The notes: generated by a model from the letters alone, not told the origin. Counted from the stretch's first letter, positions 4,386 through 19,247 are shown. The stretch: DNA of 64,000 nucleotides from an uncultured SAR116 cluster alpha proteobacterium (GCA_902625725.1 CACOCY010000009.1:1-64000); one strand, 5' to 3'. A program made the numbers and translations.

Positions 4386-4399
4386 AAGGTTTTAAAAAC

Positions 4400-5254
4400 A
4401 TGGAAAGAATGCTGGCATTTGTTGATGGTTCTATTTACAGCGAAAGTGTTTGTGATCACACGATATGGATAGCTCAAAAAAATCATTCAAAAGTATCTGT
4501 TTTCAATGTGATTGATGTGAGCGAAACAAGCCATAACGCCGCAAATTTTTCTGGAAATCTTGTTGCTGAGGCTCGCAGCACACTCCTATCTGAACTTGCT
4601 GAATTAGACAATAAAAGAGCTAAGCTGGCTCAAAAAAAAGGAAGATTAATTTTGGAGAATTCTGAAGCCCGTTTAATAGCGGGTGGCATAAAAAATATAG
4701 ATACCCATCTCCGACACGGAGACTTTGTTGATACCGTAACTGAATTTCAAAAAGAGGCCGATATTTTAATCATCGGCAAAAGAGGAGAGGCAGCCAACTT
4801 TGCCAAACTACACCTTGGTTCAAATCTTGAAAGACTAATTAGGGCAGCAAATAAGCCAGTTCTGGTTGCAGCCCGAAATTTCAAACCAATTAAAAGAGTG
4901 CTCATAGGATTTGACGGAGGGAAAAGTGCTATTAGGGCGGTAGAACATGTCTCAAATCACGACTTATTTAAAGACCTCGAATGTCATCTTTTATCTGCTG
5001 GAAGAATTGACATCAATCGAAAGGGAAAGTTAGAGGCTGCTGAAAGGTTGCTCACGGAAAAAGGTCGCAAAACTAAAACTTTTAAAACCGCAGGGGATGC
5101 TGAAACGGTAATAAGTGATCACGTAGAGCAGCATAATATAGACCTATTGGTCGTGGGAGCTTATGGACACTCGAGAATACGAAATCTAATGATAGGGTCA
5201 ACAACTACGCAAATGATAAGGTCTTGCCTAATTCCAGTTTTATTATTTCGCTAA
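4400..5254 (+). CDS. Tandem-domain universal stress protein
   Basis: The 284-residue protein has two UspA-type domains (about 1-155 and 165-284). The second ends with GAYGHSRIRNLMIGSTT, a full G-x2-G-x9-G-S/T nucleotide-binding motif, so it probably binds ATP. The first has the similar GKRGEAANFAKLHLGS. Between them, RVLIGFDGGKSAIRAVEH begins the second domain as expected. The gene lies 14 bp downstream of the SulP permease, which suggests a regulatory or accessory role for transport; that is inference. It is soluble and cytoplasmic. Confidence 0.88.
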   Translation: MERMLAFVDGSIYSESVCDHTIWIAQKNHSKVSVFNVIDVSETSHNAANFSGNLVAEARSTLLSELAELDNKRAKLAQKKGRLILENSEARLIAGGIKNIDTHLRHGDFVDTVTEFQKEADILIIGKRGEAANFAKLHLGSNLERLIRAANKPVLVAARNFKPIKRVLIGFDGGKSAIRAVEHVSNHDLFKDLECHLLSAGRIDINRKGKLEAAERLLTEKGRKTKTFKTAGDAETVISDHVEQHNIDLLVVGAYGHSRIRNLMIGSTTTQMIRSCLIPVLLFR

Positions 5255-5281
5255 TTAACTGAACAAAGCCTTATTTATTTT

Positions 5282-5578
5282 TTGATTTTTTTAAAAAAAA
5301 TTCTTTTTGTAATGGTAATTTTTCTCAATTTTATAAACTTAGGCATTTCAGATATAACAGGATATAACTTATGTTCTGGACCGATAGATACGGGGCTTGC
5401 AATGAAACGGACGCGAAATGATACTGAAGATAGTGAATTTTTTCTAGACCTATTGAAGGACCAGTTTGTGTTTTTTTATGCGCTAACAAATGTGATAATC
5501 GATGCCTATAAAAAAGCTCGAAAAAATTATAATGCAGAAGAATGCATGAATTCTAGTAAAGAGAAAGAGGCAGGCTAA
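5282..5578 (+). CDS. Small hypothetical secreted or anchored protein
   Basis: I do not recognise this family. The 98-residue frame starts at a TTG (5282) or at an ATG at codon 11. It begins with a Lys-containing tip and a hydrophobic stretch (ILFVMVIFLNFINLGIS) typical of a signal peptide. The mature part has two cysteines (YNLCSGP, EECMNS) that could form a disulfide and a charged tail. It follows the stress-protein gene by 27 bp and may be the last gene of that operon. Length and composition favour a real gene but the evidence is modest. Confidence 0.45.
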   Translation: MIFLKKILFVMVIFLNFINLGISDITGYNLCSGPIDTGLAMKRTRNDTEDSEFFLDLLKDQFVFFYALTNVIIDAYKKARKNYNAEECMNSSKEKEAG

Positions 5579-5627
5579 TACTATTTGAGTAGTGGGTAGC
5601 CATTTTTTATCCCACATTTTGTCTTAA

Positions 5628-5702
5628 ATTCTACAGGACGGCATTGGACAAGTCCAGCACTTATTATCCCATAATATTTTGATTTTATTGAGATATTTTT
5701 GA
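5628..5702 (+). pseudogene. C-terminal gene remnant shared with 9845-9916
   Basis: The last 21 codons here (DGIGQVQHLLSHNI...) match the end of the frame at 9707-9916 almost residue for residue. Within those 21 codons the two copies differ at six bases: four are synonymous and two give Q/R and L/I exchanges, as expected if both descend from a translated gene. An in-frame TAA at 5625 truncates this copy. Both copies lie the same distance upstream of a tRNA-Ser att repeat. The family is unknown; it could be the end of an element-borne gene. Confidence 0.45.
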
Positions 5703-5741
5703 ATTAAAGATGATAAAAGATGATAGTAATGAGGGTAGTGC

Positions 5742-5754
5742 GGCGGAGGGGAAG
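5742..5754 (+). repeat. Decayed att copy (att1) of the tRNA-Ser 3' end
   Basis: Thirteen bases, ggcggaggggaag, match the 3' end of the tRNA-Ser gene at 16528-16619; one further mismatch (gtgC versus gtgT) precedes them. The sequence upstream (5636-5741) is related to that upstream of att2, which supports a true attachment-site copy and not a chance match. It marks the left edge of module E1. Confidence 0.6.
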
Positions 5755-5814
5755 AACTCCGAATACCCATTTAACCTATTGTTTTATAGATATTTTTTTA
5801 CTTATTAAGAATAC

Positions 5815-5835
5815 TACCCCACATTTTACCCCACA
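5815..5835 (+). repeat. Paired direct repeat near att1
   Basis: TACCCCACA occurs twice, at 5815-5823 and 5827-5835, with 12-bp periodicity. It is a candidate pair of arm-type integrase binding sites, but the geometry differs from the pairs in E2 and E3 and no matching pair was seen at the other end of E1. Confidence 0.3.
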
Positions 5836-5934
5836 AATTTTATTGAAAAATGTAGTCTTTAAGTCTGGTGTATTTTCGTTTGAGGGTTACTAAACTGGTT
5901 TGATAATCAGCTTAAGTTTTTTAATATGGGTGGT

Positions 5935-5964
5935 GGTCCATGTACCGTGGACCTGTGACCACGG
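5935..5964. other. Two overlapping, mutually exclusive hairpins
   Basis: GGTCCA (5935-5940) can pair with TGGACC (5948-5953), while CCGTGG (5945-5950) can pair with CCACGG (5959-5964). Both cannot form together. There is no U-run, so this is not an ordinary terminator. It lies just downstream of the DUF2470 gene and inside module E1. Confidence 0.4.
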
Positions 5965-6086
5965 ACCCCGCAGGGTTGATGGATCGCCAATTTTTAACCA
6001 ATGAATTTTCGAGAGAACCAAAAATATCTTTTAGAGTAAATCAACTTAAAAATATTATCTTGCCTATATATTTAAGAACTCTTCTT

Positions 6087-6368
6087 TTAATCTAACTCAA
6101 AATTTCTATATTTTTTTGCCTGTATAATCAGTTGGTTTTTATAATGCTCCACACTTTCAGTCGCTTTTTCAAATTTTATAAAGAGCTTTTTTCCACCAGT
6201 ATCAATATAGTATCCGTCAACTTGCAAAGTTATCATTTTCGCATGAGGATCCTTGATCCCATGCTGTGCATGCAAACTCGAAATAATGGAGTTCTGATGG
6301 TCAGAATTCATATGGTCCATTATTCTGGTACTAGATATTTCGAGCCAATCTGGATTTTTATTTTTCAT
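6087..6368 (-). CDS. DUF2470 domain protein, HugZ C-terminal-like
   Basis: A 93-residue protein that consists of one DUF2470 domain: ISSTRIMDHMNSDHQNSI near the N-terminus is the typical 'ri.dHmN.DH' motif found at the C-terminal end of HugZ-type haem-utilisation proteins, followed by the usual V-D-G-Y segment (VDGYYIDTGGKK). Standalone copies are known but their chemistry is unclear. It is divergent from a haem ABC transporter operon and shares a Fur-box-like site with it, which supports a role in haem or iron handling. The flavin-like domain of full-length HugZ is missing here. Confidence 0.75.
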   Translation of the reverse strand: MKNKNPDWLEISSTRIMDHMNSDHQNSIISSLHAQHGIKDPHAKMITLQVDGYYIDTGGKKLFIKFEKATESVEHYKNQLIIQAKKYRNFELD

Positions 6369-6414
6369 TCAAAAAAATCTTTCCATTTGCAAACATTGAT
6401 CTATATTTTAAATC

Positions 6415-6433
6415 AATAATGATTATCATTTAC
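6415..6433. promoter_or_regulatory. Fur-box-like operator between DUF2470 and hmuT
   Basis: The core AATGATTATCATT (6418-6430) is a perfect 6-1-6 inverted repeat and, on the minus strand, equals the middle 13 bases of the classical Fur consensus GATAATGATAATCATTATC. Over 19 bases, 15 match. It sits between divergent haem genes, 47 bp from one start and about 140 bp from the other, as an iron-responsive operator serving both would. In Alphaproteobacteria Irr or RirA can replace Fur, so the regulator is uncertain. Confidence 0.7.
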
Positions 6434-6570
6434 AACTTATTTTAGCAATTCTTAGTTAAGGCATATTGTAGCAAAATGAAAATAGCGCACTTTTATATCG
6501 GTTGCTGATGATAAAGATAGGAGGTTCTGTCTGGAACTATAGTTCTTCTGACAGTAATAAGCTTTATGTA

Positions 6571-7434
6571 ATGAAAAATTTTTTAAGAACATTTTTAGTT
6601 TTATTTTTTTTGCTTATTACAAAATCATCTTTAAGTAATTGCGAAATAGCGAATAATGATGACAGAATTGTTGCAGCAGGGGGTTCCGTCACAGAAACAA
6701 TCTTTTTTTTGGAGAAAGAAAAAAATTTAGTTGCAAGAGATTTAACCTCTAATTTTCCGCCAAAAGCGTTAGAATTGCCATCTATAGGATACGTAAGGAA
6801 TCTCTCATCAGAGGGTTTGCTATCACTGAAACCAACGTTAATACTAGCCGAAGCCGATGTTGGACCAGATAATGTTATTGAGCAAGTCAAGAAAACATCT
6901 ATAGAACTTAGGATAGTCCCTGATAACTATAGTGAAGAGGGGATAATGTCTAAAGCGTTGTGTATCGGATCGATACTTGATGTTGATGATGAATTATTAA
7001 ACGAAAAAATAAACTCACTAAAAAAATCTATAAATACACTCAATAATGTGAGAGAGAAAGCAAAGTCGAGAAAAAAAATTATTTTGATTTTAATGATGAG
7101 AGGGACTTCACCAATTGTTGCGGGCTCTGAAACATCAGGAGATGGTTTCATTGCAATGACTGGAAACGAAAATGCATTCCTTGATATGTCAGGTTGGAAG
7201 CCAGTTGGCTTGGAGAATATTATCGAAAGTAACCCCGATTACATAATAGTTACAAAAAGAGGTTTTTCTGGTTTCAAAAATACAGAAGATTTTCTGAAGC
7301 AGACTGGTTTAATAGCTACACAGGCCGGAAAAAATGGAAAACTTATTGTTGGTGATGGAATGGAGATGCTTGGCTTTGGGCCAAGAACACTCACATTTGC
7401 CGCCAAAATTTCAGAACTCCTAACTCATGAATAA
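6571..7434 (+). CDS. hmuT: Haemin ABC transporter, periplasmic binding protein
   Basis: From the ATG at 6571 the protein has 287 residues and a clear signal peptide (MKNFLRTFLVLFFLLITKSS). DRIVAAGGSVTETIFFL is the strongly conserved opening of the HmuT/ShuT family, and the C-terminal part has EMLGFGPRTLTFAAKI. The open frame extends upstream to 6502, but a start there would bury the signal peptide. The protein would bind haem in the periplasm and hand it to HmuUV encoded directly downstream. No outer-membrane haem receptor or TonB is in the window. Confidence 0.9.
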   Translation: MKNFLRTFLVLFFLLITKSSLSNCEIANNDDRIVAAGGSVTETIFFLEKEKNLVARDLTSNFPPKALELPSIGYVRNLSSEGLLSLKPTLILAEADVGPDNVIEQVKKTSIELRIVPDNYSEEGIMSKALCIGSILDVDDELLNEKINSLKKSINTLNNVREKAKSRKKIILILMMRGTSPIVAGSETSGDGFIAMTGNENAFLDMSGWKPVGLENIIESNPDYIIVTKRGFSGFKNTEDFLKQTGLIATQAGKNGKLIVGDGMEMLGFGPRTLTFAAKISELLTHE

Positions 7435-7451
7435 TTAAACGAATAGCAAGA

Positions 7452-8471
7452 ATGATTTCATTACGTCAATTAATGAATACTAAACAAATTTTTTGGATAT
7501 CTGTTCTATCTATAGCCGTAATTTTTTCAACCATAGCTGCAATAAGTTTTGGGGGGGTAGATGTCGAACTCAAAAATATTTTTACAGGTACCATTAGTCC
7601 TCTCGAACTCGAGGTGCTAGCAAATATCAGGGGTCCAAGAGTTTTACTTGCAGCTGTAGTTGGGGCTGCTCTAGGTATATCAGGAGCAGCATTGCAAGGA
7701 TTGTTTAGAAATCCCTTAGCAGATCCAGGTTTGATTGGTGTTTCAGCAGGTGCAGCTCTTGGTGCGGTATCAGCCATTGTTTTTTTTAAAGACGGTCTTT
7801 TTGGTTTGCAATTTGGAATTTTCTTAGTTCCATTAGCTTCCGTTTTAGGTTCTTTAATTGTTATTGGTCTAATTTTTACCTTGACGAGTGGATTTACGCA
7901 ATCGGGAATAACTTATATGTTACTTGTTGGTATCGCATTAAATGCGCTTGCAACTGTAGGTATTGGCTTTCTCACATTTATAAGTAATGATAGCCAGTTA
8001 CGGGGTCTTACCTATTGGATGATGGGAAGCTTTGGCAGTGCTAATTGGCAACTTTTAATTCCTACCATCATTATCGTAACTATCGCCATTGCCAATTTGT
8101 TTATGATATCTAAAAAGTTGGATATTATTCAGTTAGGCGAGGTTGAAGCTCATAGATTAGGCATCAATATCAGATTGATAAAAATGACAATAGTGCTCTG
8201 TTCAGCTTTTATGATCGGAGCTTGTGTCTCACTATCAGGTATTATTGGTTTCATTGGATTGGTAGTGCCTCATTTAGTAAGATTGTTGGGTGGGGCAAAC
8301 CACACTTTCTTACTGCCTGGTTCTGCGTTGTTAGGTATCTCAATTTCTGTGCTTTCTGATTTATTTTCGAGAATTGTAATAACACCTGCAGAATTACCTG
8401 TTGGTTTGGCAACAAGTGCTTTAGGAGCACCTTTTTTCTTATGGTTAATAATAAGGCTTGGTAAAAATTGA
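7452..8471 (+). CDS. hmuU: Haemin ABC transporter permease, FecCD family
   Basis: A 339-residue polytopic inner-membrane protein of the FecCD/BtuC type. Signatures are RGPRVLLAAVVGAALGISGA near residue 55, GLFRNPLADPGLIGVSAGAA near residue 90, and GIIGFIGLVVPHLVRL near residue 265, the site that contacts the ATPase. It begins 17 bp after hmuT and its stop overlaps the hmuV start by four bases (TTGA), so the three genes form one operon. The substrate assignment comes from the HmuT partner. Confidence 0.92.
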   Translation: MISLRQLMNTKQIFWISVLSIAVIFSTIAAISFGGVDVELKNIFTGTISPLELEVLANIRGPRVLLAAVVGAALGISGAALQGLFRNPLADPGLIGVSAGAALGAVSAIVFFKDGLFGLQFGIFLVPLASVLGSLIVIGLIFTLTSGFTQSGITYMLLVGIALNALATVGIGFLTFISNDSQLRGLTYWMMGSFGSANWQLLIPTIIIVTIAIANLFMISKKLDIIQLGEVEAHRLGINIRLIKMTIVLCSAFMIGACVSLSGIIGFIGLVVPHLVRLLGGANHTFLLPGSALLGISISVLSDLFSRIVITPAELPVGLATSALGAPFFLWLIIRLGKN

Positions 8472-9241
8472 GTGTCGCATTCAAAAATATTTCGCTTTCA
8501 TATAAAGAGAAGGTAATTTTAGAAGACATAAGTTTCTGTATCTCTAGGGGTGAATTACTTGGCATAGTTGGCCCGAACGGTTCTGGAAAAACCACATTAA
8601 TGAAATTAGTGGCGGGTGATTTTATGCCCTCTAAAGGCGTTATAAAATATGATGATAAAGATCTTAAAAGGGTTTCTCTTTTAGAAAGGGCAAAATATAG
8701 AAGTGTAATGTCACAATCTCAAAATATTATTTTTGATTTCACGGTAAAAGAGATCATCCAAATGGGAGTTATCGGAGGATATGGTTTAAAAAATGAAAAA
8801 GAAGTAGCCAAAAAAATCCAACATATAATCAAACTTTTAGATATTGAGAAATTATTCTTTAGAAGCATTCAAACGCTATCTGGCGGCGAACAACAATTAG
8901 TTCATTTTGCAAGAGCTCTTATTCAAATTTGGGAAATGTCACATTATGAAACATCAAAATACATTTTTTTAGATGAGCCGACATCTAATCTAGATTTAAA
9001 ACAAGAGGTCAAGATTTTAGATATAACTAAAAACGAGGTTAAAAAAGGTTTGGGTGCGATGGTAATATTCCATGACCTCAATTTAACTGCTCATTATGCA
9101 GACAAAGTTTTAATGTTATCTAAAGGAAAAATTGCCGCTATGGGTAATCCATCGGATATTTTTACTCCCGACACCTTAGAGGCTGTCTATGGTTTGAAAG
9201 TGAAAGTTTTAAAAAAACCTTTTCGCATATTCCATTTCTAA
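8468..9241 (+). CDS. hmuV: Haemin ABC transporter ATP-binding protein
   Basis: The 257-residue ATPase has Walker A GPNGSGKTT (residues 36-44), signature LSGGEQQLV (about 139), Walker B YIFLDEPTSNLD (about 164) and the switch His in VIFHDLN. Order and spacing match FepC/HmuV ATPases that energise import through FecCD permeases. It starts with TTG in a TTGA overlap with hmuU, which implies translational coupling. It acts at the cytoplasmic face of the inner membrane. Confidence 0.92.
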   Translation: MSVAFKNISLSYKEKVILEDISFCISRGELLGIVGPNGSGKTTLMKLVAGDFMPSKGVIKYDDKDLKRVSLLERAKYRSVMSQSQNIIFDFTVKEIIQMGVIGGYGLKNEKEVAKKIQHIIKLLDIEKLFFRSIQTLSGGEQQLVHFARALIQIWEMSHYETSKYIFLDEPTSNLDLKQEVKILDITKNEVKKGLGAMVIFHDLNLTAHYADKVLMLSKGKIAAMGNPSDIFTPDTLEAVYGLKVKVLKKPFRIFHF

Positions 9242-9250
9242 CGAAAGAAA

Positions 9251-9577
9251 ATGATGACAGATTTCAATTATTTAATAGATATAACAGAACGCTTGAAATT
9301 ATTGTTCAGGGCTAGATCTACTTATCACCTTTTCATTATTTTTTTAATTTTTAGTATTAGCGGCGGTGCTTCATTATGGGTATCAGATCATATTCTGAAT
9401 TTTTTGGGACTTGAGTCATTTTTTAGTTCAGCATTCATTTATTGGATACTAAAGATCCCAATAATAATATTATCCTATCAATTTATCCTTTTAGCTGTAA
9501 GTGCGGTATTTGGTGAATTTAAGCATTTTTCTAGATATAGCTTAAAACTATTCTCAATTTTTAAAAAAATGTTTTAA
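9251..9577 (+). CDS. Small two-helix membrane protein, DUF6787-like
   Basis: A 108-residue protein with two hydrophobic segments (residues about 27-52 and 65-88). The pattern 'FSISGGASLWVSDHILNFLGL' shortened to SISGGASLWV, then KIPIIILSYQFILLAVSAVFGEF and a basic tail, resembles small DUF6787-type membrane proteins, which have a Gly-Ser-x-Ser-Leu motif after helix one and a P-x-Y-Q motif in helix two. It starts nine bases after hmuV and probably shares its transcript. The function is unknown; a link to haem uptake is inferred only from position. Confidence 0.55.
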   Translation: MMTDFNYLIDITERLKLLFRARSTYHLFIIFLIFSISGGASLWVSDHILNFLGLESFFSSAFIYWILKIPIIILSYQFILLAVSAVFGEFKHFSRYSLKLFSIFKKMF

Positions 9578-9706
9578 TTTTTAAGCCACTAAAAATTATT
9601 AATTTCTATTAGTTGCTCTTATCATTAATTAAGGAAATTTTTTGGTTGAATATTTTCTATATTACAAGTTATTGATAGGTATTTATAGTTTTAAAGAGGA
9701 TTAACT

Positions 9707-9916
9707 TTGGCAATATTAGGAAAGGCACAAGGAGTTTTTGACCTAGAAAATAGTGATTTTTCTATTGGCTCCTTCCTGTCAAAAAAGGATATCAAGCAGA
9801 TACTAGGTGTGGATGACTCCGATATCGGTACACTAAAATTCCAGAATTTGGACGGCATCGGACGAGTCCAGCACTTAATATCCCACAATATCCTGATTTT
9901 ATTGAGATATTTTTGA
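9707..9916 (+). CDS. Short unknown frame, partly shared with 5628-5702
   Basis: The 69-residue frame starts at TTG 9707 after an AGAGGA ribosome site (about 9696). The first 45 residues are hydrophilic and unfamiliar (FDLENSDFSIGSFLSKKD). The last 21 are nearly identical to the remnant at 5628-5702, with mostly synonymous differences. The gene may be an intact small element gene or a fusion of an unrelated start with an element end. It stops 37 bp before att2. Confidence 0.35.
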   Translation: MAILGKAQGVFDLENSDFSIGSFLSKKDIKQILGVDDSDIGTLKFQNLDGIGRVQHLISHNILILLRYF

Positions 9917-9953
9917 TTTCAAGATGGTAAAAGATGGCACTGAAAATGGTAGT

Positions 9954-9973
9954 GTGGCGGAGGGGAAGGGATT
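9954..9973 (+). repeat. att copy 2 (att2) of the tRNA-Ser 3' end
   Basis: The 20 bases gtggcggaggggaagggatt equal the sequence at 12564-12583 and at the tRNA-Ser gene (16527-16546). Identity to att3 continues to the right for another 18 bases or so (aaaagtgaataaaatcaat). It marks the E1/E2 border. Confidence 0.85.
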
Positions 9974-10006
9974 AAAAGTGAATAAAATCAATAACTTACA
10001 AGGCAA

Positions 10007-10025
10007 TGTGAGATATGTGTGAGAT
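10007..10025 (+). repeat. Paired arm-type repeat at the E2 left end
   Basis: TGTGAGAT occurs at 10007-10014 and 10018-10025, 11 bp apart. The first copy begins 34 bp after att2, the same offset as the TGCCTGAT pair in E3. Position and spacing (one helical turn) fit arm-type binding sites of a tyrosine integrase. Confidence 0.5.
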
Positions 10026-10111
10026 TATACTGGAATAGCTAAAGAAGCAAGCCTCGCTGAGTACCTACCTGCTCTGTTCGGGGTTTGCTTTGCCCATCTG
10101 GAATCTAACTT
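10025..10111 (-). pseudogene. 3' fragment of a T4-type (GH24) lysozyme gene
   Basis: On the minus strand 28 codons plus stop read KLDSRWAKQTPNRAGRYS..., ending in LASLAIPV. This matches the end of the copy at 12635-12835 and resembles the C-terminal 'sRW..QTPNRA.R' motif of T4 lysozyme. Compared with the other copy nearly all base changes are at third codon positions or between leucine codons, so the region was under protein-level selection. An in-frame TAG at 10112-10114 and loss of homology upstream show truncation. Confidence 0.65.
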
Positions 10112-10153
10112 CTAAATTTCATATTTAATCAAAAAATAACTCTTCAAAAAAAT

Positions 10154-11431
10154 TTAAAGCCAAATTTTATATAAACCAATAGTTTCTTCCCGACCTCTTA
10201 TTTTATAATTAGAGATATATTCAGAGCGGAGCGGAAAATTAATATTCTCTCGCAGTTCTGAGCTTATTAAAAAGTTCGTATCGAATTCTTTACACGCACT
10301 GCAAATTCTACTTGCAACATTTACAGTATCTCCAAGCACCGCAAATTCTATTCTGTGTTTACTACCCATATTTCCAACTACGCAACGACCAAAATGAATT
10401 CCTATACGATGCTCTATTTCGAATTTGCCATTTTTAGTGCGCTCTTGATTCCACTTTTCTAATGCCTCGTTCATTGCGACTGCGCAGTCAAAAGCGTTCT
10501 GCGAGTCATTTCCATAAGATTTTGGTGTACCAAAGTTAGCCATTACGGCATCACCGATAAATTTATCAACCGTACCACTATGTTTAAATATGTTATCTAC
10601 CATAATACTTTGATATTCCGACAATAAAACCAAGGTATCTTTTGGGTCCATTTTTTCAGATAACTGAGTAAAGTTTACAATATCTGTAAACATTACTGCC
10701 ACATCCATTTCTTTAGTCGAGGATGTATTGAAATTATCGCCACTATTTCTTATTTCTTCCTTTATGTCTGGTGAAAAATAGCGACTTAAATTTCTATTTT
10801 CTGTTTCAGCACTAATTGTCGAGTGCATTACCCAACGATTAAAATGAATTAAGGTGGAGATTACGAATAAGAAAAATATTGATGTCATAAACCCATCAGT
10901 TAATGCCCATTTGTTTACAGCATAACCATTGGAAATAATTATATCCCAGTCATCCGCAATAAATACCTTCTCATAGGAGGATAGAGTCACAAATTCCTTT
11001 AGCGGTCTGAAGCAAGAAAGAGCTAGCCACAGGTAGTTTGCCCATAGTCGGGAGAAAAATAAACAAAACAGTGCGGTTAATGGAAACGACATAAAGATAT
11101 AATCCATCATCCTTCCCGTTCCAACTATTTCAACACTCTGTAATCTATAACCCTCCAATTCATGTCCAAGCATGAATAAATTAAAAAATAAATGAAATGA
11201 TATTATAGAAACAAACAAATAAACTGCATATTTTTGTGGTTTAAGTGTCAGAAATATTATCAAAAAAATTAGTATAGCAACTGCTGGCACTCCTCGAACC
11301 AGAAAATTATCTATAAAAAATTGCTTTGGCTGCTCAATCCATTCAAGAAATCCCAGTGTTCCAAAAGAAAAGATAGCAAGCAAACCTAAAACTTTTAGAA
11401 ATCTAATTTCTAATCTATTTCCGGATAACAC
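10154..11431 (-). CDS. Membrane-bound class III adenylate/guanylate cyclase
   Basis: The N-terminal half (about residues 10-215) has roughly five or six hydrophobic segments and no recognisable sensor domain. The C-terminal half is a class III cyclase domain: VAVMFTDIVNFTQLSE (metal Asp), VDKFIGDAVMANFG (second metal Asp) and VLGDTVNVASRI (transition-state Asn region). It should make cAMP or cGMP from the corresponding triphosphate. I prefer GTG at 11431 because GGGAG lies six bases upstream; the frame stays open to a TTG at 11449. It lies inside att-bounded module E2, on the minus strand, 43 bp from the lysozyme remnant. Confidence 0.85.
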   Translation of the reverse strand: MLSGNRLEIRFLKVLGLLAIFSFGTLGFLEWIEQPKQFFIDNFLVRGVPAVAILIFLIIFLTLKPQKYAVYLFVSIISFHLFFNLFMLGHELEGYRLQSVEIVGTGRMMDYIFMSFPLTALFCLFFSRLWANYLWLALSCFRPLKEFVTLSSYEKVFIADDWDIIISNGYAVNKWALTDGFMTSIFFLFVISTLIHFNRWVMHSTISAETENRNLSRYFSPDIKEEIRNSGDNFNTSSTKEMDVAVMFTDIVNFTQLSEKMDPKDTLVLLSEYQSIMVDNIFKHSGTVDKFIGDAVMANFGTPKSYGNDSQNAFDCAVAMNEALEKWNQERTKNGKFEIEHRIGIHFGRCVVGNMGSKHRIEFAVLGDTVNVASRICSACKEFDTNFLISSELRENINFPLRSEYISNYKIRGREETIGLYKIWL

Positions 11432-11584
11432 AGTCAGCTCCCGATGCAATATTTTAAAGATGTTTTTTTATTAGCGCTATACACACCATTTCTCCACCAT
11501 AACCAACAATATCAATTCTCAAAAATTTGTTCATATTTTTAGTATAATTAATAATCGTTGTTATGACGACCTTCTCTTTACTTA

Positions 11585-11609
11585 GACGGTCTTTTTACCG
11601 TCCTTTTTT
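11585..11609 (+). terminator. Rho-independent terminator
   Basis: GACGGT (11585-11590), a six-base loop, ACCGTC (11597-11602) and a run of six Ts (11604-11609). It is oriented on the plus strand although no gene lies upstream on that strand within E2. It could end a short leader RNA or act as an attenuator for the small frame that follows. A GACC at 11568-11571 could compete for GGTC at 11588-11591, but only four pairs form. Confidence 0.6.
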
Positions 11610-11643
11610 AATCGTAAGCTATTCGCCTAAAGAGGAGGCCACC

Positions 11644-11709
11644 ATGCACGCCATCATAAATATCGCAGTTGTATCCGTTTTATCCTTGGTTACAATTGTG
11701 GGACATTAA
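11644..11709 (+). CDS. Very small hydrophobic frame (21 residues)
   Basis: ATG at 11644 follows a strong GAGGAGG-like ribosome site (aagaggaggccacc). The 21 codons give a hydrophobic peptide, MHAIINIAVVSVLSLVTIVG followed by His, which could be a single membrane helix. A terminator directly upstream and the MotA-like gene 36 bp downstream suggest either a leader peptide or a small membrane protein. I do not recognise it. Confidence 0.4.
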   Translation: MHAIINIAVVSVLSLVTIVGH

Positions 11710-11745
11710 ATTATAAATGAGTAAAGCTAAAAAAGGGGATTTGGG

Positions 11746-12111
11746 ATGATTTTGTCAACAATAATGGTAATTGGGTCAATTTTTTTAATGTTGTTTGGGA
11801 TTGTTATAGGAGGAGATATAGGGCTTTCATTCAACCTTCCAGCGGCCGTTTTAGTTATCGGGCTAGCCTCTTTATCTACAATTGGAGCTAAAGCTGTGAA
11901 AACAGACCTAGACTCTCTGCAATATTTTGGCGAGTCCGCAGTTAGAGCAGGTTGGATTGCATTTTTTATAGGATTGGTAATGACTAGTGGTTTATTGCAG
12001 AACGAAGCAAATTTAATTGAGTTTTTGCCTAGAGCAATCTCGATAATATTTTTAGGACCTCTTTACGGCTATGTATTAAACTTTTTAACAAAAATCTTGT
12101 CACCTAGATAA
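11746..12111 (+). CDS. Small membrane protein resembling the MotA N-terminus
   Basis: A 121-residue protein with about four hydrophobic stretches. The segment GSIFLMLFGIVIGGDIGLSF followed by NLPAAVLVIGLASLSTIGA resembles the beginning of MotA/PomA stator proteins ('G...GG.lg.f.d.psvliviGG.'). A second pair of helices follows near residues 65-110. It lacks the cytoplasmic loop and the proton-path region of full MotA. It may be a separate small family or a shortened relative. Its presence in the same tandem array as a flagellin is suggestive, but a motility role is not shown. Confidence 0.5.
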   Translation: MILSTIMVIGSIFLMLFGIVIGGDIGLSFNLPAAVLVIGLASLSTIGAKAVKTDLDSLQYFGESAVRAGWIAFFIGLVMTSGLLQNEANLIEFLPRAISIIFLGPLYGYVLNFLTKILSPR

Positions 12112-12280
12112 AATCAATCGACGAGGGACTAATGCGACTGACTCGGATATAAAGTTACGCACCTTATCCGATAACAATCAAGCTATGGAACAAACGAACT
12201 GTCACCAAATTTATGCAGTCAATTTAAAAGAATAATTTTCTAAACCCGTTTTGCAACATGAGTGAGATAACGTCAGAAAG

Positions 12281-12496
12281 AAAATCAACCTAGAGTTTCT
12301 ATGGTGGCATGACCTTCGAAGAACCTGGGCAACGATGGCGGCAAGGGAACGTGTCGATATGATTCAAATTTCCAGACAACTCGGTCACGCAAGTATGAGA
12401 ATTACCGAAGAGCATTACGCTCACTACCATCCTGATTATATGGGTCAGGCGAGTGACCATTCTAGTCGGATGTTGCAAAATTTCCTAGAACGGTAG
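12281..12496 (+). pseudogene. 3' fragment of a tyrosine integrase gene (copy in E2)
   Basis: The plus-strand frame gives KINLEFLWWHDLRRTWATMA and on to LQNFLER before TAG. It contains the catalytic box II parts of tyrosine recombinases: H-x-x-R (HDLRR), LGH and a C-terminal Tyr (EEHYAHYHPDY). The N-terminal arm-binding and core-binding domains and the first catalytic Arg are missing. It has no start codon. Versus the copy at 16244-16459 there are about a dozen synonymous and about three non-synonymous differences, so the two copies diverged as functional genes before truncation or were acquired separately. Confidence 0.85.
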
Positions 12497-12510
12497 TCAG
12501 TGCCTAAAAT

Positions 12511-12529
12511 AGGAGGCAAAACCGAGGCA
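12511..12529 (+). repeat. Paired arm-type repeat at the E2 right end
   Basis: AGGAGGCA (12511-12518) and CCGAGGCA (12522-12529) share GAGGCA and are 11 bp apart. The pair ends 35 bp before att3, exactly as the ATCAGGCA pair does before the tRNA att. Likely integrase arm sites, with a changed outer sequence. Confidence 0.5.
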
Positions 12530-12563
12530 AAACGCTTTAAACCATTGAAATCATTAGTTTTTT

Positions 12564-12583
12564 GTGGCGGAGGGGAAGGGATT
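12564..12583 (+). repeat. att copy 3 (att3) of the tRNA-Ser 3' end
   Basis: Identical over 20 bases to att2 and to the tRNA-Ser end. To the left, 12536-12563 matches the sequence left of the tRNA att (cattgaaatcattagttttt); to the right it matches att2. It is therefore the hybrid junction between modules E2 and E3. Confidence 0.88.
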
Positions 12584-12616
12584 AAAAGTGAATAAAATCA
12601 ATGACTTAAAAGCCAT

Positions 12617-12635
12617 TGCCTGATGAGTGCCTGAT
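12617..12635 (+). repeat. Paired arm-type repeat at the E3 left end
   Basis: TGCCTGAT at 12617-12624 and 12628-12635, 11 bp apart, starting 34 bp after att3. The reverse complement, ATCAGGCA, is found twice with the same spacing at the other end of the module (16474-16492). Confidence 0.65.
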
Positions 12636-12835
12636 TATACTGGAATAGCAAGCGATGCGAGCCTGTTCGAATACCTCTGCGCCCTGTTCGGGGTTTGCAT
12701 CGCCCATCTGGAATCCAATATCTCGGTTGCACATTTATCCCACGAACCTTCTTTGGCATACTGGATGGACTTTTTAAATTTAGAAAAACGCGGACGGCCT
12801 AATTGAAATATCATCCCTGGAGTCGAGTAGGTATA
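12635..12835 (-). pseudogene. 3' fragment of a T4-type (GH24) lysozyme gene (copy in E3)
   Basis: Sixty-six codons plus stop on the minus strand. They include GMIFQLGRPRFSKF, EGSWDKCATEILDSRW and QTPNRAQRYSNRL. The order and spacing correspond to the C-terminal lobe of T4 lysozyme (NMVFQMG...RWDEA...SRWYNQTPNRAKRV). The catalytic N-terminal half is missing and a TAA (12836-12838) precedes the fragment in frame. The enzyme would cleave peptidoglycan; here only the gene end remains, next to att3. It suggests a prophage or phage-related ancestor. Confidence 0.75.
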
Positions 12836-12941
12836 TTAATTCTGGTATCATAAATGAAAAGAATATCTATTTCTTACCCCAAAAATAGTTAAATAAATTC
12901 TAGAAAAAGACGTTCCTTTCCGCAGTTATTGGAATAAAAAA

Positions 12942-15900
12942 ATGTCTTTTTCAAACTCAATAAATAATCAGGTGCAAATTCGGCATAATCTATTAGAGGC
13001 AAATAACGAACTTCAAAAAAGCATGGAGAAACTGTCTACAGGGGTTCGTTTAAATTCTGCTAGCGATAATGTTGCTTCGACAGCTATTGCTTTCAATTTT
13101 GAAACAAAAATTAAAAGTCTTCAGGCAAGTCTAAAAAACCTCTCTCAGAATATTTCGATAACTCAAATTGCACAATCTGCTTTGGAAGAAGTGGCAAGTC
13201 TTCTCCAAAGAATGAGAGAAATAAAACTACAATCTGTCAATGATACAAACACAGACACAGACAAAGAATATTTAAATCAGGAAGTTTTGCAGTTAACGAA
13301 GCAAATAGATAATATACTTTCCACTACTGAGTTTAATGGAAAAAGTATTTTAAATACCTCTTTTTTGACCGAAAAACACAATGTTGAGATTGACGAATTT
13401 GACAATTTTAAAATCAATTCGTCTAAACTCAGCGCTTTATCCTCTAAGCCTAATGCAGGAATAAGCGATACTGAACAAAATGAGTTTTTATCACTTTATG
13501 AAGTTGGACGATTAAAATTTTCTGAGAGTGATACTTATTCATTTTCCATAAAAGACAATGAAACAGGTCTGACTTTTCAAAGCCCGGCTGTAGAAATAGC
13601 GGCAGATGAACCACCTTCTGACTATCGAGTTTTGACCTACAGCGCTACGCCAATAATATTTTCAAACGGTCACAATTTTAAAACTGGGGACTTATTGGAA
13701 CTTAATGATATTACTTTTCTTTTTCCAAATAGTCCGAACCCAGCAGAAATGTATGCAATAGCGTTGAGCGATACTGAGTTACTTTTTGCAGATAGCCGGA
13801 TAAATGCAATGAACGGTAAACAAAGTCCTATAAGCGTCGCGGTTGGAGACAATATAACGGTTTCAGGTCAAGGCTTTTCCCTGAATATTGAAGACGAAAA
13901 TTCAAAGTCTAATTTTGAAAAATTTATTAATGAGGGACTAGAAAAATCTACTACTAAAACAAGTATCCAATCAAAATACCAAATTCCTAGGCCATTGGAT
14001 GTATATGATGACTATTTTTTAGACATTGGTGAATTTAGAGAGGATGATTTTAAGTTTCGAGTTTCAATCGATGGGGTATCAAAAGATATTAACTTTAAAA
14101 AAGGCTTTGAAGATTATATTAAAAATGGAGATATAAGTGGCCACACTCGGTATCATAGTGATATAAGCCGAATACATCCAGAAAAAACATTTTTTTTGCA
14201 AGAGATAGGAAGAATAATCAGCAAAGAGTTGCAGATTATATTCGACGAGAGCGTTTTTGTTAAACAGGCTGGACCTGGGTTATTTGAACTAACTGATGCT
14301 AAAGGACGTTCGATAGAAATCTCTCAAGGAGAAGGAAGTGGTTATTTTTTTGGAACAGATAACCAAAATGGAGGTTCTTTATTTGTTGAAGGCAACCAAA
14401 AAAATAATATTTCGGTAAAGTGGGATGATAATGGTGAAGAATTAATCATTTATCACGCAAATGGAGGAAGTTTTCAAATTCAGGATGTTTCCAGCGAAGG
14501 CTCTGGCAAAATAACTTTATCCACCCCCTCAATTGAAAATTCAGAAATGAGTACATCAACATACACTCTTAGGGATGACGCAAGAGACACAAATGCAAAA
14601 TTTACTGGATTGGTAGAACCAAGCGAACTCATATTAAATTTTTCAAATTTATTCGGTTATGCCGATGACCGTGTTTCCCGGACTGCAGACACATCAATTT
14701 TAAAATCTACTTATGGATTTAAAATTACAGATGGGGGCGGTAATCATTATATCAATTTCTCTGCAAATGACCTTTTAGACATTCAATCGTATAATAATAC
14801 TGATGCAGATATTGAAGCGGCAATAAGAGAAAATTTAGAAAATCAGATTCTGGTTGGAGCCAATGGTGGTAGTTTTAATGACAATCAACTCAATGCCAAT
14901 GAATTTCAAATCACCTATAAAGAGGGTGTATTAAAGATAGTTAATAATGTAGGTCGAAACCTTGCCGTTGAAGACTTCAATTCTGAATATGGCTCTGTAG
15001 AAGTTTATAACCCTGGTTTAAATTCTTTTTCCGAAACACTCTCATCTAAAAAAGCACACGTTTCTGAACTGAGGTTAGAAAGAGGATGGGCTGAAGGCTT
15101 TAGTGCTGAAGCTGCACCGTTACGGTTTTCTTTGAACGGAGATGAGACATTCTCGGCAAATCTACATAGTGTATTTGATATGTCTCAAACTAACCGGTGG
15201 AGCGAGGCTTATTTCTTTGAGCAAGCCATACAAACTGCAGCTAACGCGGATACTAATTTAAGAGTTGGTTATGATGAAAAATCTAACGAATTTATAATTA
15301 TTGATTTGCTAGGTAGAGAAATTGAGATCAAGAATTTTGAGGCCACTGGAGACCAAGGAATAGATATAAGTGGCAACATTCTATTAAATACAACATCTAC
15401 TATTGGATTTTCAAACCAAAATAATAACGTAAAGACACAAACTGAAAAATTTTCTCAAGGTGAATTAAACGAAATCACCCAAGTAAAACTAGATTTTAAT
15501 CAAAGAGATGCCTCAGAATTTATTCTAGGTTTAAATGGGCAAGTTTCATCTGCTGTAGATTTTAATTTTGCGAATGCAGGTTTCAACGGGTCAAATTTAG
15601 AACAAAGCCTAGATTATTTATTTGACCGTTTAAATAGAGATTATAAAGACGCTCCCTTTAATTATTCATACGACAAGAAACAAAATGCTCTAATCGTTCG
15701 AAATATGAGAGGGGGAGAATTATACTTTGACGGACACTCCACTTCATCAGACAATTTTGAAATGATAGCAACAGCAATTTCAGGGCAATTGAATAATGCC
15801 GATATAAAACTCTCAAAAAATACCTCGGTAATTAAATACGAGGAACAACTAGAGTTTGTTCAAATTGATAAACAACTCGATTTGATAAAGCAAAATAATA

Positions 15901-16235
15901 AAACTATATCAGTAAAACATCCCTTAGATAAAAGTAACTTAACTCATAATATGAATGGTGAACTCTCTCTCAATCAGATAGATGATTTCTTGGCAAACAC
16001 CATTGCTAATCAAATTGAGTTTGGCGTCGCTCAGAACAGGATTAGTTTTATGATAAATAATACTTTCAATGAAGAGAATAAGACTAAGATAGCTTTGGGA
16101 CGCCTTAAGGATACTGACTATTCATTTGAAGTCTCTAGGCTAGTGAAGGAACAACTGGTAGTGCAATCTTCTGTATCAATGTTAGCCCAAGCAAACCAGT
16201 TAAATAAAAATATCCTTATACTTTTAAATCTCTAG
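12942..16235 (+). CDS. Giant flagellin (1097 residues)
   Basis: Residues 1-150 form a flagellin D0/D1 N-terminal domain: LQKSMEKLSTGVRLNSASDN near residue 24 and TTEFNGKSIL near residue 128. The C-terminal end has the matching domain, GRLKDTDYSFEVSRLVKEQL and MLAQANQLNKNIL, with the final helix at 1085-1097. Typical flagellins have 270-500 residues. Here a central region of about 850 residues is inserted where the variable, surface-exposed D2/D3 domains lie. It seems built from at least four divergent repeats of about 75-100 residues starting near 368, 589, 726 and 858, each opening with F-x-(I/L)-x-(D/G)-G and closing with G-(R/G)-x-(I/L)-x-(I/F). No HExxH protease motif is visible. It is the only cargo gene of module E3; no other flagellar gene is in the window. 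The start has only a weak GGA upstream. Confidence 0.9.
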   Translation: MSFSNSINNQVQIRHNLLEANNELQKSMEKLSTGVRLNSASDNVASTAIAFNFETKIKSLQASLKNLSQNISITQIAQSALEEVASLLQRMREIKLQSVNDTNTDTDKEYLNQEVLQLTKQIDNILSTTEFNGKSILNTSFLTEKHNVEIDEFDNFKINSSKLSALSSKPNAGISDTEQNEFLSLYEVGRLKFSESDTYSFSIKDNETGLTFQSPAVEIAADEPPSDYRVLTYSATPIIFSNGHNFKTGDLLELNDITFLFPNSPNPAEMYAIALSDTELLFADSRINAMNGKQSPISVAVGDNITVSGQGFSLNIEDENSKSNFEKFINEGLEKSTTKTSIQSKYQIPRPLDVYDDYFLDIGEFREDDFKFRVSIDGVSKDINFKKGFEDYIKNGDISGHTRYHSDISRIHPEKTFFLQEIGRIISKELQIIFDESVFVKQAGPGLFELTDAKGRSIEISQGEGSGYFFGTDNQNGGSLFVEGNQKNNISVKWDDNGEELIIYHANGGSFQIQDVSSEGSGKITLSTPSIENSEMSTSTYTLRDDARDTNAKFTGLVEPSELILNFSNLFGYADDRVSRTADTSILKSTYGFKITDGGGNHYINFSANDLLDIQSYNNTDADIEAAIRENLENQILVGANGGSFNDNQLNANEFQITYKEGVLKIVNNVGRNLAVEDFNSEYGSVEVYNPGLNSFSETLSSKKAHVSELRLERGWAEGFSAEAAPLRFSLNGDETFSANLHSVFDMSQTNRWSEAYFFEQAIQTAANADTNLRVGYDEKSNEFIIIDLLGREIEIKNFEATGDQGIDISGNILLNTTSTIGFSNQNNNVKTQTEKFSQGELNEITQVKLDFNQRDASEFILGLNGQVSSAVDFNFANAGFNGSNLEQSLDYLFDRLNRDYKDAPFNYSYDKKQNALIVRNMRGGELYFDGHSTSSDNFEMIATAISGQLNNADIKLSKNTSVIKYEEQLEFVQIDKQLDLIKQNNKTISVKHPLDKSNLTHNMNGELSLNQIDDFLANTIANQIEFGVAQNRISFMINNTFNEENKTKIALGRLKDTDYSFEVSRLVKEQLVVQSSVSMLAQANQLNKNILILLNL

Positions 16236-16243
16236 CATTCACA

Positions 16244-16459
16244 AAAATCAACCTAATGTTTCTATGGTGGCATGACCTTCGAAGAACCTGGGCAACGATG
16301 GCGGTAAGAGAGCGTGTCGATATGATACAAATTTCTCGACAACTCGGTCACGCGAATATGAGAATTACCGAAGAGCATTACGCTCATTACCATCCTGACT
16401 ACATGGGTCAGGCAAGTGACCATTCTAGTCGAATGTTACAGAATTTCCTAGAACGGTAG
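16244..16459 (+). pseudogene. 3' fragment of a tyrosine integrase gene (copy in E3)
   Basis: The frame from the internal ATG (16256) gives 67 residues with HDLRR, LGH and EEHYAHYH, the box II catalytic residues of a tyrosine recombinase. Homology with the E2 copy begins at the same base (aaaatcaaccta) in both, so the two share one truncation point. The fragment starts nine bases after the flagellin stop codon. It may be translated as a short protein but cannot be a working integrase. Confidence 0.85.
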
Positions 16460-16473
16460 TGAGTGCCTAAAAA

Positions 16474-16492
16474 ATCAGGCAAAAATCAGGCA
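16474..16492 (+). repeat. Paired arm-type repeat at the E3 right end
   Basis: ATCAGGCA at 16474-16481 and 16485-16492, 11 bp apart, ending 35 bp before the tRNA att. They are exact reverse complements of the pair at 12617-12635, as expected for integrase arm sites at opposite ends of an element. Confidence 0.65.
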
Positions 16493-16526
16493 AAACGCCC
16501 TAACCCATTGAAATCATTAGTTTTTT

Positions 16527-16546
16527 GTGGCGGAGGGGAAGGGATT
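16527..16546 (+). repeat. att copy 4 (att4), inside the tRNA-Ser gene
   Basis: The 20-base sequence shared with att2 and att3, here made of one flanking base, the encoded CCA, the acceptor stem and the start of the T arm of tRNA-Ser. Integration here restores the tRNA 3' end, the usual strategy of tyrosine integrases. Confidence 0.88.
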
Positions 16547-16619
16547 CGAACCCCCGGAAGGAGTTTCCTCCTTCAACGATTTAGCAAACCGCCGCCTTCA
16601 GCCACTCGGCCACCCCTCC
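16528..16619 (-). tRNA. tRNA-Ser(GCU)
   Basis: Read on the minus strand the gene starts GGAGGGGTGGCCGAGTGGCT and ends with CCCCTCCG followed by an encoded CCA. The acceptor stem GGAGGGG/CCCCTCC is perfect, the T loop contains GGTTCGAATCC, the anticodon in TTTGCTAAA is GCU (codons AGC/AGU), and the long variable arm GAAGGAGGAAACTCCTTC is class II as expected for serine. The length is 92 nt with CCA. Its 3' end is the integration site for the upstream modules. Confidence 0.97.
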
Positions 16620-16848
16620 GCAATAAATAGATGAAGTTCAAATAATTGCACGGCGTTTGTATTATTCCTTTAATATTTTCCATTTTGCCTGTCAATTCAT
16701 TCGCACATTTAAATAGAGGAAATTTATTAATTGGTTATTTTGGCTATTAGTAAATATTGCAAGATTTAATAGATAGCAGATCTTGATAAGCTATTGGTTC
16801 TGATTTACTTATTGTTTCAATAAAAGAGAAAATTATTTTGGAGCAAGC

Positions 16849-17796
16849 GTGGATTTAATTACCTCGATGCGCGTTTTTACGGTTATTGCAAGTGAAAATT
16901 CATTTAGAGCCGCCGCTGACATATTGGATATGCCCCCTTCTGCAGTGTCAAAACACCTTGCAGGCTTAGAGACCCGACTGGGTGCACAGCTCGTAGAAAG
17001 AACAACAAGAAGAGTTTCACTGACAGAAGTTGGCTCTGATTATCTGGTAAGATGCCGACACATCTTATCTGAAATTGACGAGGCAGAAGCAGAAATAACA
17101 GATGCTGCCGGAGAGGTAAAAGGAGTTCTAAAGGTAAGTGCACCTCCAGCTTTTGCTCACAGACATATTGCACCACATATGCCTTATTTTCTGAGTAAAT
17201 ATCCAAAGATATCTGTAGATTTAAGCACCACTGACTATTCTATATCTCCTAGCCATACAGCTATTGATTTACATATCCGAATTTCTGAAATGAACTCCAC
17301 CGATGGGCTCACTACAATTATGCTTGCACCGAATACGCGAAGACTTGTTGCAAGTCCTCAATATTTAAATGCCCAAGGAATGCCAGCGGCTGTTTCAGAT
17401 TTACAGAAACACAGGCTTATTACACTCGAATACGGGCATCCTCATAATAATTGGCATTTCAGAACTGAAAATGGAGAAATAAATACATTTCTTGCTAACG
17501 GTTCTGTGAGAATGGACTCTGGTGATGCTATTTTACGAGCCGTTTTGAATAATGGTGGCATTTCAATGCTTCCAACCTATGTCACTGGAAAGCACATTCA
17601 TAATAAGCATCTAGTTCCGATTCTTGACGAATTGGTGAATGAGGATGAACCTATTCATGCCACTTTCAGAACGAAAAATCATCGATATAAGCGCATCATG
17701 TTGCTTACTACATTTCTTCAAGGCCTATACTCGCCAACACCTTATTGGGACCAGCACGAGGGCACTTCAGAGGCTGCACTGCGAGCAGCACTCTAA
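16849..17796 (+). CDS. LysR-family transcriptional regulator
   Basis: A 315-residue protein. The N-terminal winged helix (residues 1-60) reads [20 protein letters not shown] followed by [20 protein letters not shown] and RRVSLTEVG, close to the CrgA/PecT-like branch of LysR regulators. The remainder is a substrate-binding-like effector domain. The GTG start at 16849 has GGAG five bases upstream. It is next to the tRNA-Ser gene and overlaps the end of gatB by four bases in convergent orientation. No obvious target gene is adjacent, so the effector and regulon are unknown. Confidence 0.92.
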
Positions 17797-19247
17797 ATAT
17801 CGAGTTTTTGTTTTAATAACTGATTCACCATGCCTGGGTTAGCCTGCCCTTTTGAAGCTTTCATTATTTGACCTACGAAAAATCCAAATAACTTATCTTT
17901 ACCGCCTCTATATTCGTTTACCTTATCAAGGTTGGCTGCTAACACCTCATCAATCATGGCAAAAATAGTGCTTTCGTCTGATACCTGCTTAAGTCCTTTT
18001 TCATCAACAATGAGCTTTGCATCCTTTCCAGTTTCAAACATCTCAGAAAATACTTCTTTTGCGATCTTACCAGAAATGCTGCCATCAGAAATCAGGTCAA
18101 TTAAGTCCCCTAACTGCGAAGGGCTCACTGGGCTTTGAGCAAGCTCAATACCAGCTTTATTAAGTGCACCAAATAATTCTACACTCATCCAGTTAGCTGT
18201 AATTTTTCTATCTCTCCCATCACTAGCCAGCTCATAAAACGCTGCGGTTTCTCTCTCTTCGGTAAGTACATTTGCATCATAAGAAGAAAGCCCGTATTCA
18301 TTAACCATTCTGTATTTTATTTCATCCGGCAGCTCAGGCATTCCCATTCTAAGCTCATCAATAAATGCATCATCAAATGTGAGTGGTAATAAATCAGGAT
18401 CCGGAAAATATCGATAATCATGCGCATCTTCTTTTCCTCGCATAGCTCTCGTCATTCCAGTTGTGGTATCGAATAGTCTGGTTTCTTGTTTAACCTCACC
18501 ACCATTTTCAATAAGCTCAATTTGGCGGTTCACCTCAAACTCAATTGTTTGCATTATGAATTTGACAGAATTAAGATTTTTTGTTTCAGTTCTGGTTCCA
18601 AGTAAATGTCCTGGTCTCCTAACGGACACATTTACATCTGCTCGTAGAGAACCCTCCTCCATGTTTCCATCGCATGTCCCAAGATATCGTAGAATCGACC
18701 TTAACTTCTTAATATAAGCAGCAGCCTGTTCCGCTGAATGCATTTCTGGCTTTGATACAATCTCCATCAAAGCGACGCCAGAACGATTGAGGTCAATATA
18801 ACTTTTTAAGGGATGTTGGTCATGAAGTGATTTGCCTGCATCCTGCTCTAAATGAATTCGCTCAATACCTACCTTATGTGTGCTGCCATCAGATAGCTCT
18901 ATTTTAACTTCCCCTTCTCCAACAATTGGGTGTTTAAATTGGCTTATCTGATAACCTTGCGGTAAATCTGCATAAAAATAATTTTTTCTGTCAAATACAC
19001 TAAATTTATTAATTTTTGCGTTAAGTCCAAGCCCAGTTAAAACAGCCTGTTTAACGCATTGTTCATTTATTACGGGAAGCATTCCCGGCATTGCCGCATC
19101 CACAAGAGAAACATGATTATTTGGACTCGCCCCAAATACTGCAGAGGACCCTGAGAACAATTTAGAATTAGAAACGACTTGTGCATGAACTTCCATACCA
19201 ATTACTACTTCCCATTCACCGGTTCTGCCCGATACAAGTGTGCTCAT
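17793..19247 (-). CDS. gatB: Asp/Glu-tRNA(Asn/Gln) amidotransferase subunit B
   Basis: The 484-residue protein contains [10 protein letters not shown] near residue 17, the classic GatB opening, then [46 protein letters not shown] and a C-terminal YqeY-like tail domain ([12 protein letters not shown]). GatB binds the mischarged tRNA and carries out the kinase step; with GatA and GatC it makes Gln-tRNA(Gln) and/or Asn-tRNA(Asn). It overlaps gatA by four bases and is third in a gatC-gatA-gatB operon. Confidence 0.97.

Follow-up and report, generated by a model that had tools for sequence, protein, structure and literature searches.

A gene for a giant flagellin lies beside a tRNA gene in an uncultured SAR116 cluster alphaproteobacterium, apart from the flagellar genes of the same genome. 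The locus raises the question of how such a gene came to stand there, whether it can still be moved, and what its product may do in a cell that has a giant flagellin of its own. The window analysed here is the whole stretch of 64,000 nucleotides (GCA_902625725.1 CACOCY010000009.1:1-64000). The explanation that we favour, with slightly more than even confidence, is that the gene is held by an integrase-less, phage-derived att cassette and encodes a second giant flagellin, constrained but divergent. The locus suggests that phage remains may act as small carriers of surface genes.

Two tandem att cassettes at a tRNA-Ser gene

The ORF at 12942..16235 (+ strand) encodes a protein of 1097 aa that matches Pfam Flagellin_N (residues 8-139, 1.3e-28, 100.2 bits against a cut-off of 26.6) and Flagellin_C (residues 1011-1095, 2.2e-12, 47.6 bits against a cut-off of 23), with no further Pfam family between the two. 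As both domains exceed their curated cut-offs, the protein is a bacterial flagellin, as had been claimed, and its length places it among the giant flagellins (>1000 aa). It can be divided into a D0/D1 N-terminal part (residues 1-141), a central part (142-1002) and a C-terminal part (1003-1097). AlphaFold2, in a low-confidence model (mean pLDDT 54.7; both models that we obtained have means below 55), predicts helices at residues 2-33, 40-99, 105-128 and 1003-1096; structure prediction, proposed as a check, thus yielded the D0/D1 helices and left the central part at low confidence. Internal repeats of the central region were considered, given beta-beta-alpha units in the model, and were rejected, the profile comparisons being weak except for one 35-column match.

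The tRNA-Ser(GCT) gene at 16528..16619 (- strand; ARAGORN) is the integration target. The 19-mer TGGCGGAGGGGAAGGGATT, which is the 3' end of this tRNA, occurs exactly at three places in the window against 0.01 expected, all given here on the + strand: at 9955..9973 (att core copy 1, left edge of an outer cassette, hereafter cassette 1), at 12565..12583 (copy 2, left edge of the flagellin cassette) and at 16528..16546 (copy 3, within the intact tRNA gene). Two modules therefore stand in tandem, cassette 1 at 9974-12583 and the flagellin cassette at 12584-16546, and their ends are repeated: a right-end repeat of 300 nt (12281-12580 and 16244-16543) is 91% identical, and a left-end direct repeat, D2, of 175 nt (9953-10127 and 12563-12737) is 79% identical. 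The original prediction of a flagellin carried alone in an att-bounded module at a tRNA holds insofar as the flagellin is the sole complete gene between att copies 2 and 3. What it had missed is that the module is one of two in tandem, and that its edges are fragments of a phage lysozyme gene and a phage integrase gene. The stretch 12565-16546 has no ORF for an integrase of its own, or for packaging or interference genes. The flagellin cassette shares with satellites and hitchers the att sites at both ends; as a prophage, att-bounded and carrying an integrase and structural genes, it does not qualify, because the integrase tail and the lysozyme tail alone remain. Since it adjoins the intact tRNA, the flagellin cassette was probably the last to arrive, and the older cyclase-bearing cassette would have been pushed outward.

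Cassette 1 starts with a left end at 9974..10127 (- strand), part of repeat D2, in which a 26-aa lysozyme C-terminal fragment lies at 10031-10108 (tblastn 73% to an IMG/VR phage lysozyme), and it closes with a phage integrase C-terminal fragment at 12236..12496 (+ strand; tblastn 72% to residues 257-342) that contains one in-frame stop. Its cargo consists of an adenylate/guanylate cyclase at 10154..11449 (- strand; Pfam Guanylate_cyc 4.4e-24), hydrophobic at its N-terminus, and a 121-aa membrane protein at 11746..12111 (+ strand), an ORF that is 96% identical in G009, a genome of the same genus, and 57-61% identical elsewhere in the genus. The latter gave no significant family match; homologues occur across the order. 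A motility theme for this cassette was discarded, the best PDB hits of the 121-aa protein, MotA/PomA, being insignificant (E 5.5-7.9). So was a Pycsar defence system: the cyclase matches Pycsar cyclase models (2.3e-28), and the 121-aa protein beside it has no match among defence families.

Further left, beyond att copy 1, a group of genes for ABC uptake of the iron/haem type (periplasmic binding protein, FecCD permease and ATPase) occupies 6087-9577 together with genes for DUF2470 and DUF6787 proteins; this group is absent from the corresponding place in G009.

Phage origin of the cassette ends and their recurrence in the genus

The left end of the flagellin cassette contains a C-terminal 58-aa fragment of a phage lysozyme at 12641..12814 (- strand; tblastn 67%, 4e-22 to L116:1511-2059), and the right end a phage integrase fragment at 16244..16459 (+ strand; tblastn 73%, 1.3e-32) that corresponds to the final 67 aa of a tyrosine recombinase and starts near residue 270 of the 343. 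This integrase fragment is 91% identical to that of cassette 1 and 96% to that of G003, another genome of the genus. When IMG/VR was scanned with the integrase tail, three phage contigs were recovered (L114-L116, 77% identity). They encode a complete 343-aa integrase (Pfam Phage_integrase 1e-20; PHROG integrase 4.7e-50) and a 182-aa lysozyme that converge across a presumed attP (int>-attP-<lysozyme); the intergenic sequence between the two genes, GTGGCGGGAGTGAGG, resembles the 3' end of tRNA-Asp. Both gene tails sit at the two ends of the cassette in the orientation expected of an integrated prophage. As the phages carry this arrangement intact, the cassette can be described as two prophage ends around one host-type gene.

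Between the lysozyme and integrase tails and their respective att cores lie matched repeats, which from their pattern and position are putative arm-type integrase sites. The left site, TTGCCTGATGAGTGCCTGAT (12616..12635, + strand), is a 17/20 inverted match to the right site, ATCAGGCAAAAATCAGGCAA (16474..16493, + strand), which is identical in G003; shuffled sequences reach at most 13 (0 of 200). Each side has two 9-bp units spaced about one helical turn apart. A matched pair is also present in the cassette of G003, and the phage's own pair matches at 18/20; cassette 1 has no matched pair.

These features are consistent with the following history. The source would be a temperate phage, with integrase and lysozyme converging on attP, that used tRNA genes of this SAR116 genus for integration; as a prophage it would have had the lysozyme end next to one att and the integrase end next to the opposite one. 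The prophage interior would then have been lost or replaced, and the ends kept around the flagellin gene. What remains on the left would be a remnant of ~250 bp (att, two arm-type sites and lysozyme tail), and on the right one of ~300 bp (integrase tail, two arm-type sites and att). A conserved breakpoint acting as a recombination site was considered and rejected, since the start of homology at 16244, at first sight shared by several copies, is the edge of the query itself; the actual breakpoints range from integrase residue 242 to 291 among the copies.

When 111 genomes were searched with a 69-aa integrase tail, 15 loci matched strongly. All of them belong to this genus and all are truncated; none of the genomes yielded a full-length integrase closely related to the tail. 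The copies adjoin tRNA-Ser, tRNA-Asp and tRNA-Glu, with differing cargo. At the tRNA-Ser site of G003, the left and right ends of the flagellin cassette (94.5% identical over 256 nt, 12563-12817, and 94.7% over 457 nt, respectively) enclose different genes, among them those for an M48 peptidase and a DUF898 protein; the same site holds no cassette in G009, and other integrases in G001, G004 and G006. Alternative flagellins, which had been suggested as occupants of this att site in relatives, were thus not found there. Within the G003 cassette, at L072:9059-10181, we also noted a second, degenerate pair of ends with an att core of tRNA-Glu type, and so cassettes appear to be nested as well as tandem.

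Exchange between species is evident around the flagellin gene. The cyclase cassette (10059-12522) is 96% identical over 2467 bp in G009, where it stands at tRNA-Asp. Identity to G003 and G009 is 90-98% on the left of the tRNA-Ser locus (2000-16546) and ~84% on its right, with a sharp change at the tRNA, which implies that the left side was recently exchanged between species. The proposal of horizontal exchange therefore stands for the ends of the flagellin cassette, for cassette 1 and for the left flank, and not for the flagellin itself, of which no second copy was found in 151 genomes, IMG/VR or phage records. Carriage of the flagellin by a phage was also examined and set aside: a protein scan of IMG/VR returned no relative, and phage records match at the N-terminal domain only. 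For packaged cassettes, two DNA patterns taken from the ends had no match in IMG/VR.

A grounded prophage offers a different account of the same anatomy, namely that an internal deletion took place, a duplicated resident-type flagellin landed inside and nothing has moved since, which would leave the att repeats and gene tails as fossils. Prophage decay after the loss of excision, with gene gain, is a described route (PMC6379469), and such a scar agrees with the truncation of 15/15 integrase tails, some of them with stops, and with the mismatched arm sites of cassette 1; indeed, this mismatch means that some such modules may be immobile scars. It is harder to reconcile with the matched putative arm pairs retained by the flagellin cassette and by that of G003, with truncations that are uniformly short and no partly decayed prophage seen, and with a cyclase cassette that two species share at 96% identity, each at a different tRNA. 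We consider this account a serious possibility, although short of probable. In the favoured explanation, the integrase of a related phage would excise and reinsert the cassette in trans, which may still be feasible because both att cores and the matched putative arm pair remain. We lean marginally towards such movement, and the integrase of the IMG/VR contigs is of a helper-like kind; neither an excised circle, nor a helper phage, nor a second location of the flagellin cassette was found.

Divergence and constraint of the island flagellin

The D0/D1 ends had been described as well preserved. They are recognisable, yet their N-terminal identity is low and their C-terminal score is the lowest of those compared. 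The N-terminal domain of the island copy is 41-48% identical to genus flagellins, whereas the residents share 79-89% among themselves, and that of one resident (G007_1) is 62-65% identical even to betaproteobacterial proteins. The island C-terminal region scores 73 bits, the lowest of 56 flagellin C-termini (the others reach at least 109.6 bits), and the N-terminal score is the fifth-lowest of 146, the lower ones including FlgL-type and cut-off proteins. The resident motif DDAAGLAI is DNVASTAI in the island copy. In trees, the D0/D1 branch lengths of the island copy are ~1.77 (N) and ~1.66 (C), against <=0.17 for residents. The usual conservation of D0/D1, which is typical and not strictly defining of flagellins, is therefore missing here, and so strong a divergence argues against an ordinary filament role.

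The central part, originally taken for an insertion of about 850 residues in place of the usual variable region, is not a novel one: the host's own resident flagellin has a homologous region, and so do giant flagellins of marine betaproteobacteria. It is 32-36% identical to genus residents, with a branch of 1.66 against 0.36-0.74 for the residents, and it clusters with genus flagellins, apart from the homologous betaproteobacterial giants (support 100/100), although the position of such a long branch in the tree is unsure. A recent copy of the resident flagellin is ruled out, as identity is merely 36-39%.

This kinship of the central region could be read as vertical inheritance of a second flagellin that drifted in function and came to lie beside phage debris by chance. 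The distribution of the gene does not fit: it is present in 1/10 genus genomes (known from one assembly, the genomes compared being incomplete), its orthologues are absent from the same place in sister species, and in relatives the site is empty or occupied by other cargo. The gene is, moreover, closely flanked on both sides by phage gene tails and att repeats, with 8 bp between the stop codon and the integrase tail and 124 bp between the G003-like left end and the start codon. Vertical descent without mobility, named beforehand as the finding that would count against an island origin, is in our view highly improbable.

The long branches also bear on whether the gene is dying, with the constraint on the filament core lost. 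D0/D1 branches far longer than those of the residents would agree with a pseudogene, as would a weak Shine-Dalgarno sequence and the lack of a resident-type promoter motif. However, the reading frame is open over 1097 codons, with no stop and no frameshift, where tens of stops would be expected without selection: ~35 even at a divergence of 0.5 amino-acid changes per site, given 6.3 nonsense for every 100 missense changes, an estimate that depends on the long, uncertain branch lengths. The D0/D1 helices, too, are still predicted in the structural model. A gene on its way out thus seems quite unlikely. An open frame of this length despite the divergence indicates a protein kept under altered constraint, and the island flagellin probably retains a function.

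Its expression is less sure. In resident upstream regions (C27 and the first flagellin of G007), AGGAGG precedes the start codon and TGGCAY-N5-TTG-like (sigma-54-like) motifs occur, features that are less clear in the flagellin of G004 and the second one of G007; upstream of the island flagellin there is neither AGGAGG nor a TGGCAY-N5-TTG-like motif.

The host, whose genome falls in the SAR116 order because named SAR116 records proved identical to other genomes of that order, has the apparatus by which such a protein could be exported. Contig C7 of the same genome carries flhA, flhF, flhG, fliA and flgB-L, and contig C27 carries pse-type sugar genes followed by the resident giant flagellin, cut by the contig end; the uncut order in G007 is flgL, pse genes and two flagellins of 1068 aa. 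FlgE and the FlgK of G007 were confirmed by Pfam, and the other flagellar names were read from sequence. FlhA is encoded by 9/10 genus genomes. Genes for hook, rod, export and resident flagellin are therefore found elsewhere in the host genome, and the case raised against the original prediction, a genome devoid of other flagellar genes, falls away. No match to MotA_N or MotA_ExbB above the cut-off was obtained in the host's own assembly (G000), so its stator genes are either missing from the assembly or diverged.

We consider it reasonably likely that the island flagellin is exported via this resident apparatus, after which it would form or decorate a filament distinct from that of the resident giant flagellin. 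Free co-assembly with the resident is doubtful, because the packing core of the island protein is strongly changed; we see the chances as evenly balanced that it builds a filament that is separate or minor instead of mixing freely with the resident. Evasion of flagellotropic phages or grazers, as first suggested, is a speculative role for it.

Relation to known elements

The closest precedent, by analogy, appears to be FliCP of Enterobacter, according to its authors the first known prophage-encoded flagellin, which is carried by a complete, inducible 53.5-kb prophage beside the RNA-guided repressor TldR; these authors consider phage resistance unlikely as its main reason (PMC13418256). The two cases are alike in context: both have a phage-derived setting and a flagellin that diverges strongly from the one its host already has. 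They differ in that the island cassette consists of prophage ends only and encodes a giant protein in a marine alphaproteobacterium, and, unlike FliCP-TldR, it has no adjacent RNA-guided repressor, holding just the flagellin and two phage-gene tails.

This precedent makes flagellar conversion worth weighing, that is, that the flagellin came as a gene of a phage or satellite which altered the host filament, the rest of the phage being lost later. The position of the gene between two prophage ends would suit such an origin, and FliCP too is encoded by a prophage and tends to differ strongly from the flagellin of its host. On the other hand, no phage with the island flagellin is present in IMG/VR or phage records, the cassette lacks a TldR-like or other regulator gene, and the nearest kin of the central region are the chromosomal flagellins of the genus itself. 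We regard flagellar conversion as unlikely, and continue to favour a host-type gene captured between prophage ends.

Studied giant flagellins form the main filament, and the domain duplication underlying them has been inferred to be vertically inherited (PMC6248924). The island protein resembles them in exceeding 1000 aa, in having flagellin N- and C-terminal domains with a long central extension, and in belonging to a marine bacterium. It departs from them as a diverged extra copy in a mobile-element setting. A literature search found no paper on a giant flagellin between prophage-end remnants.

Known phage satellites encode integration or helper-exploitation functions. PICI, PICMI, VEIME and tycheposons depend on helper phages and carry cargo genes, and proto-hitchers have been proposed to derive from defective prophages (PMC11389934, PMC10803314). 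Unlike these, the cassettes described here are prophage ends that encode no known mobility protein. They are closer to CALIN and MITEs (PMC11389934) in that recombination sites are kept, units form arrays and, if a cassette moves, the enzyme acts in trans; they differ in having tRNA att cores and putative arm sites of phage type instead of attC sites or terminal inverted repeats. With grounded prophages (PMC6379469) they share the truncated prophage that holds accessory genes, and they are set apart by uniformly minimal ends, matched putative arm sites in one cassette and cargo that depends on the species at the same site.

A bolder reading is that SAR116 harbours a class of minimal prophage-end cassettes, mobilised in trans and hopping between tRNA genes and species by means of a helper integrase, one of which converts the flagellum with an orthogonal giant flagellin. 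We put this forward tentatively, as possible and rather less than probable. If the cassettes do move, they would be about the simplest possible phage parasites, made of two att ends and cargo, the phage counterpart of CALIN and MITEs, and streamlined marine bacteria could swap single surface genes through them. The island gene would add to Enterobacter FliCP another, apparently independent, phage-linked flagellin, this time from a marine clade; whether it builds an orthogonal filament can be tested directly, given its diverged packing core.

Several minor observations concern the size and distribution of flagellar proteins. Within the order, a flagellin length of about 1000 aa is common. Marine betaproteobacteria, among them MED-G174 and TMED41, carry giant flagellins (L117, L118, L119, L155 and L190) with a homologous central region, 25-32% identical to that of the SAR116 genus, and among related records L148, L167 and L173 have flagellins of some 1870-1880 aa. 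A canonical flagellin is absent from most genus assemblies, including 92-95% complete ones; mostly surface-sugar genes follow flgL in G009, G001 and G004 (L213, L214 and L216), and pse genes with a flagellin are seen in G000 and G007. The flagellar locus of C7 (L065) encodes a giant FlgE of 1491 aa at 4923-9398 and a giant FlgK of 1739 aa at 13289-18508, and G007 likewise has a FlgK of 1739 aa.
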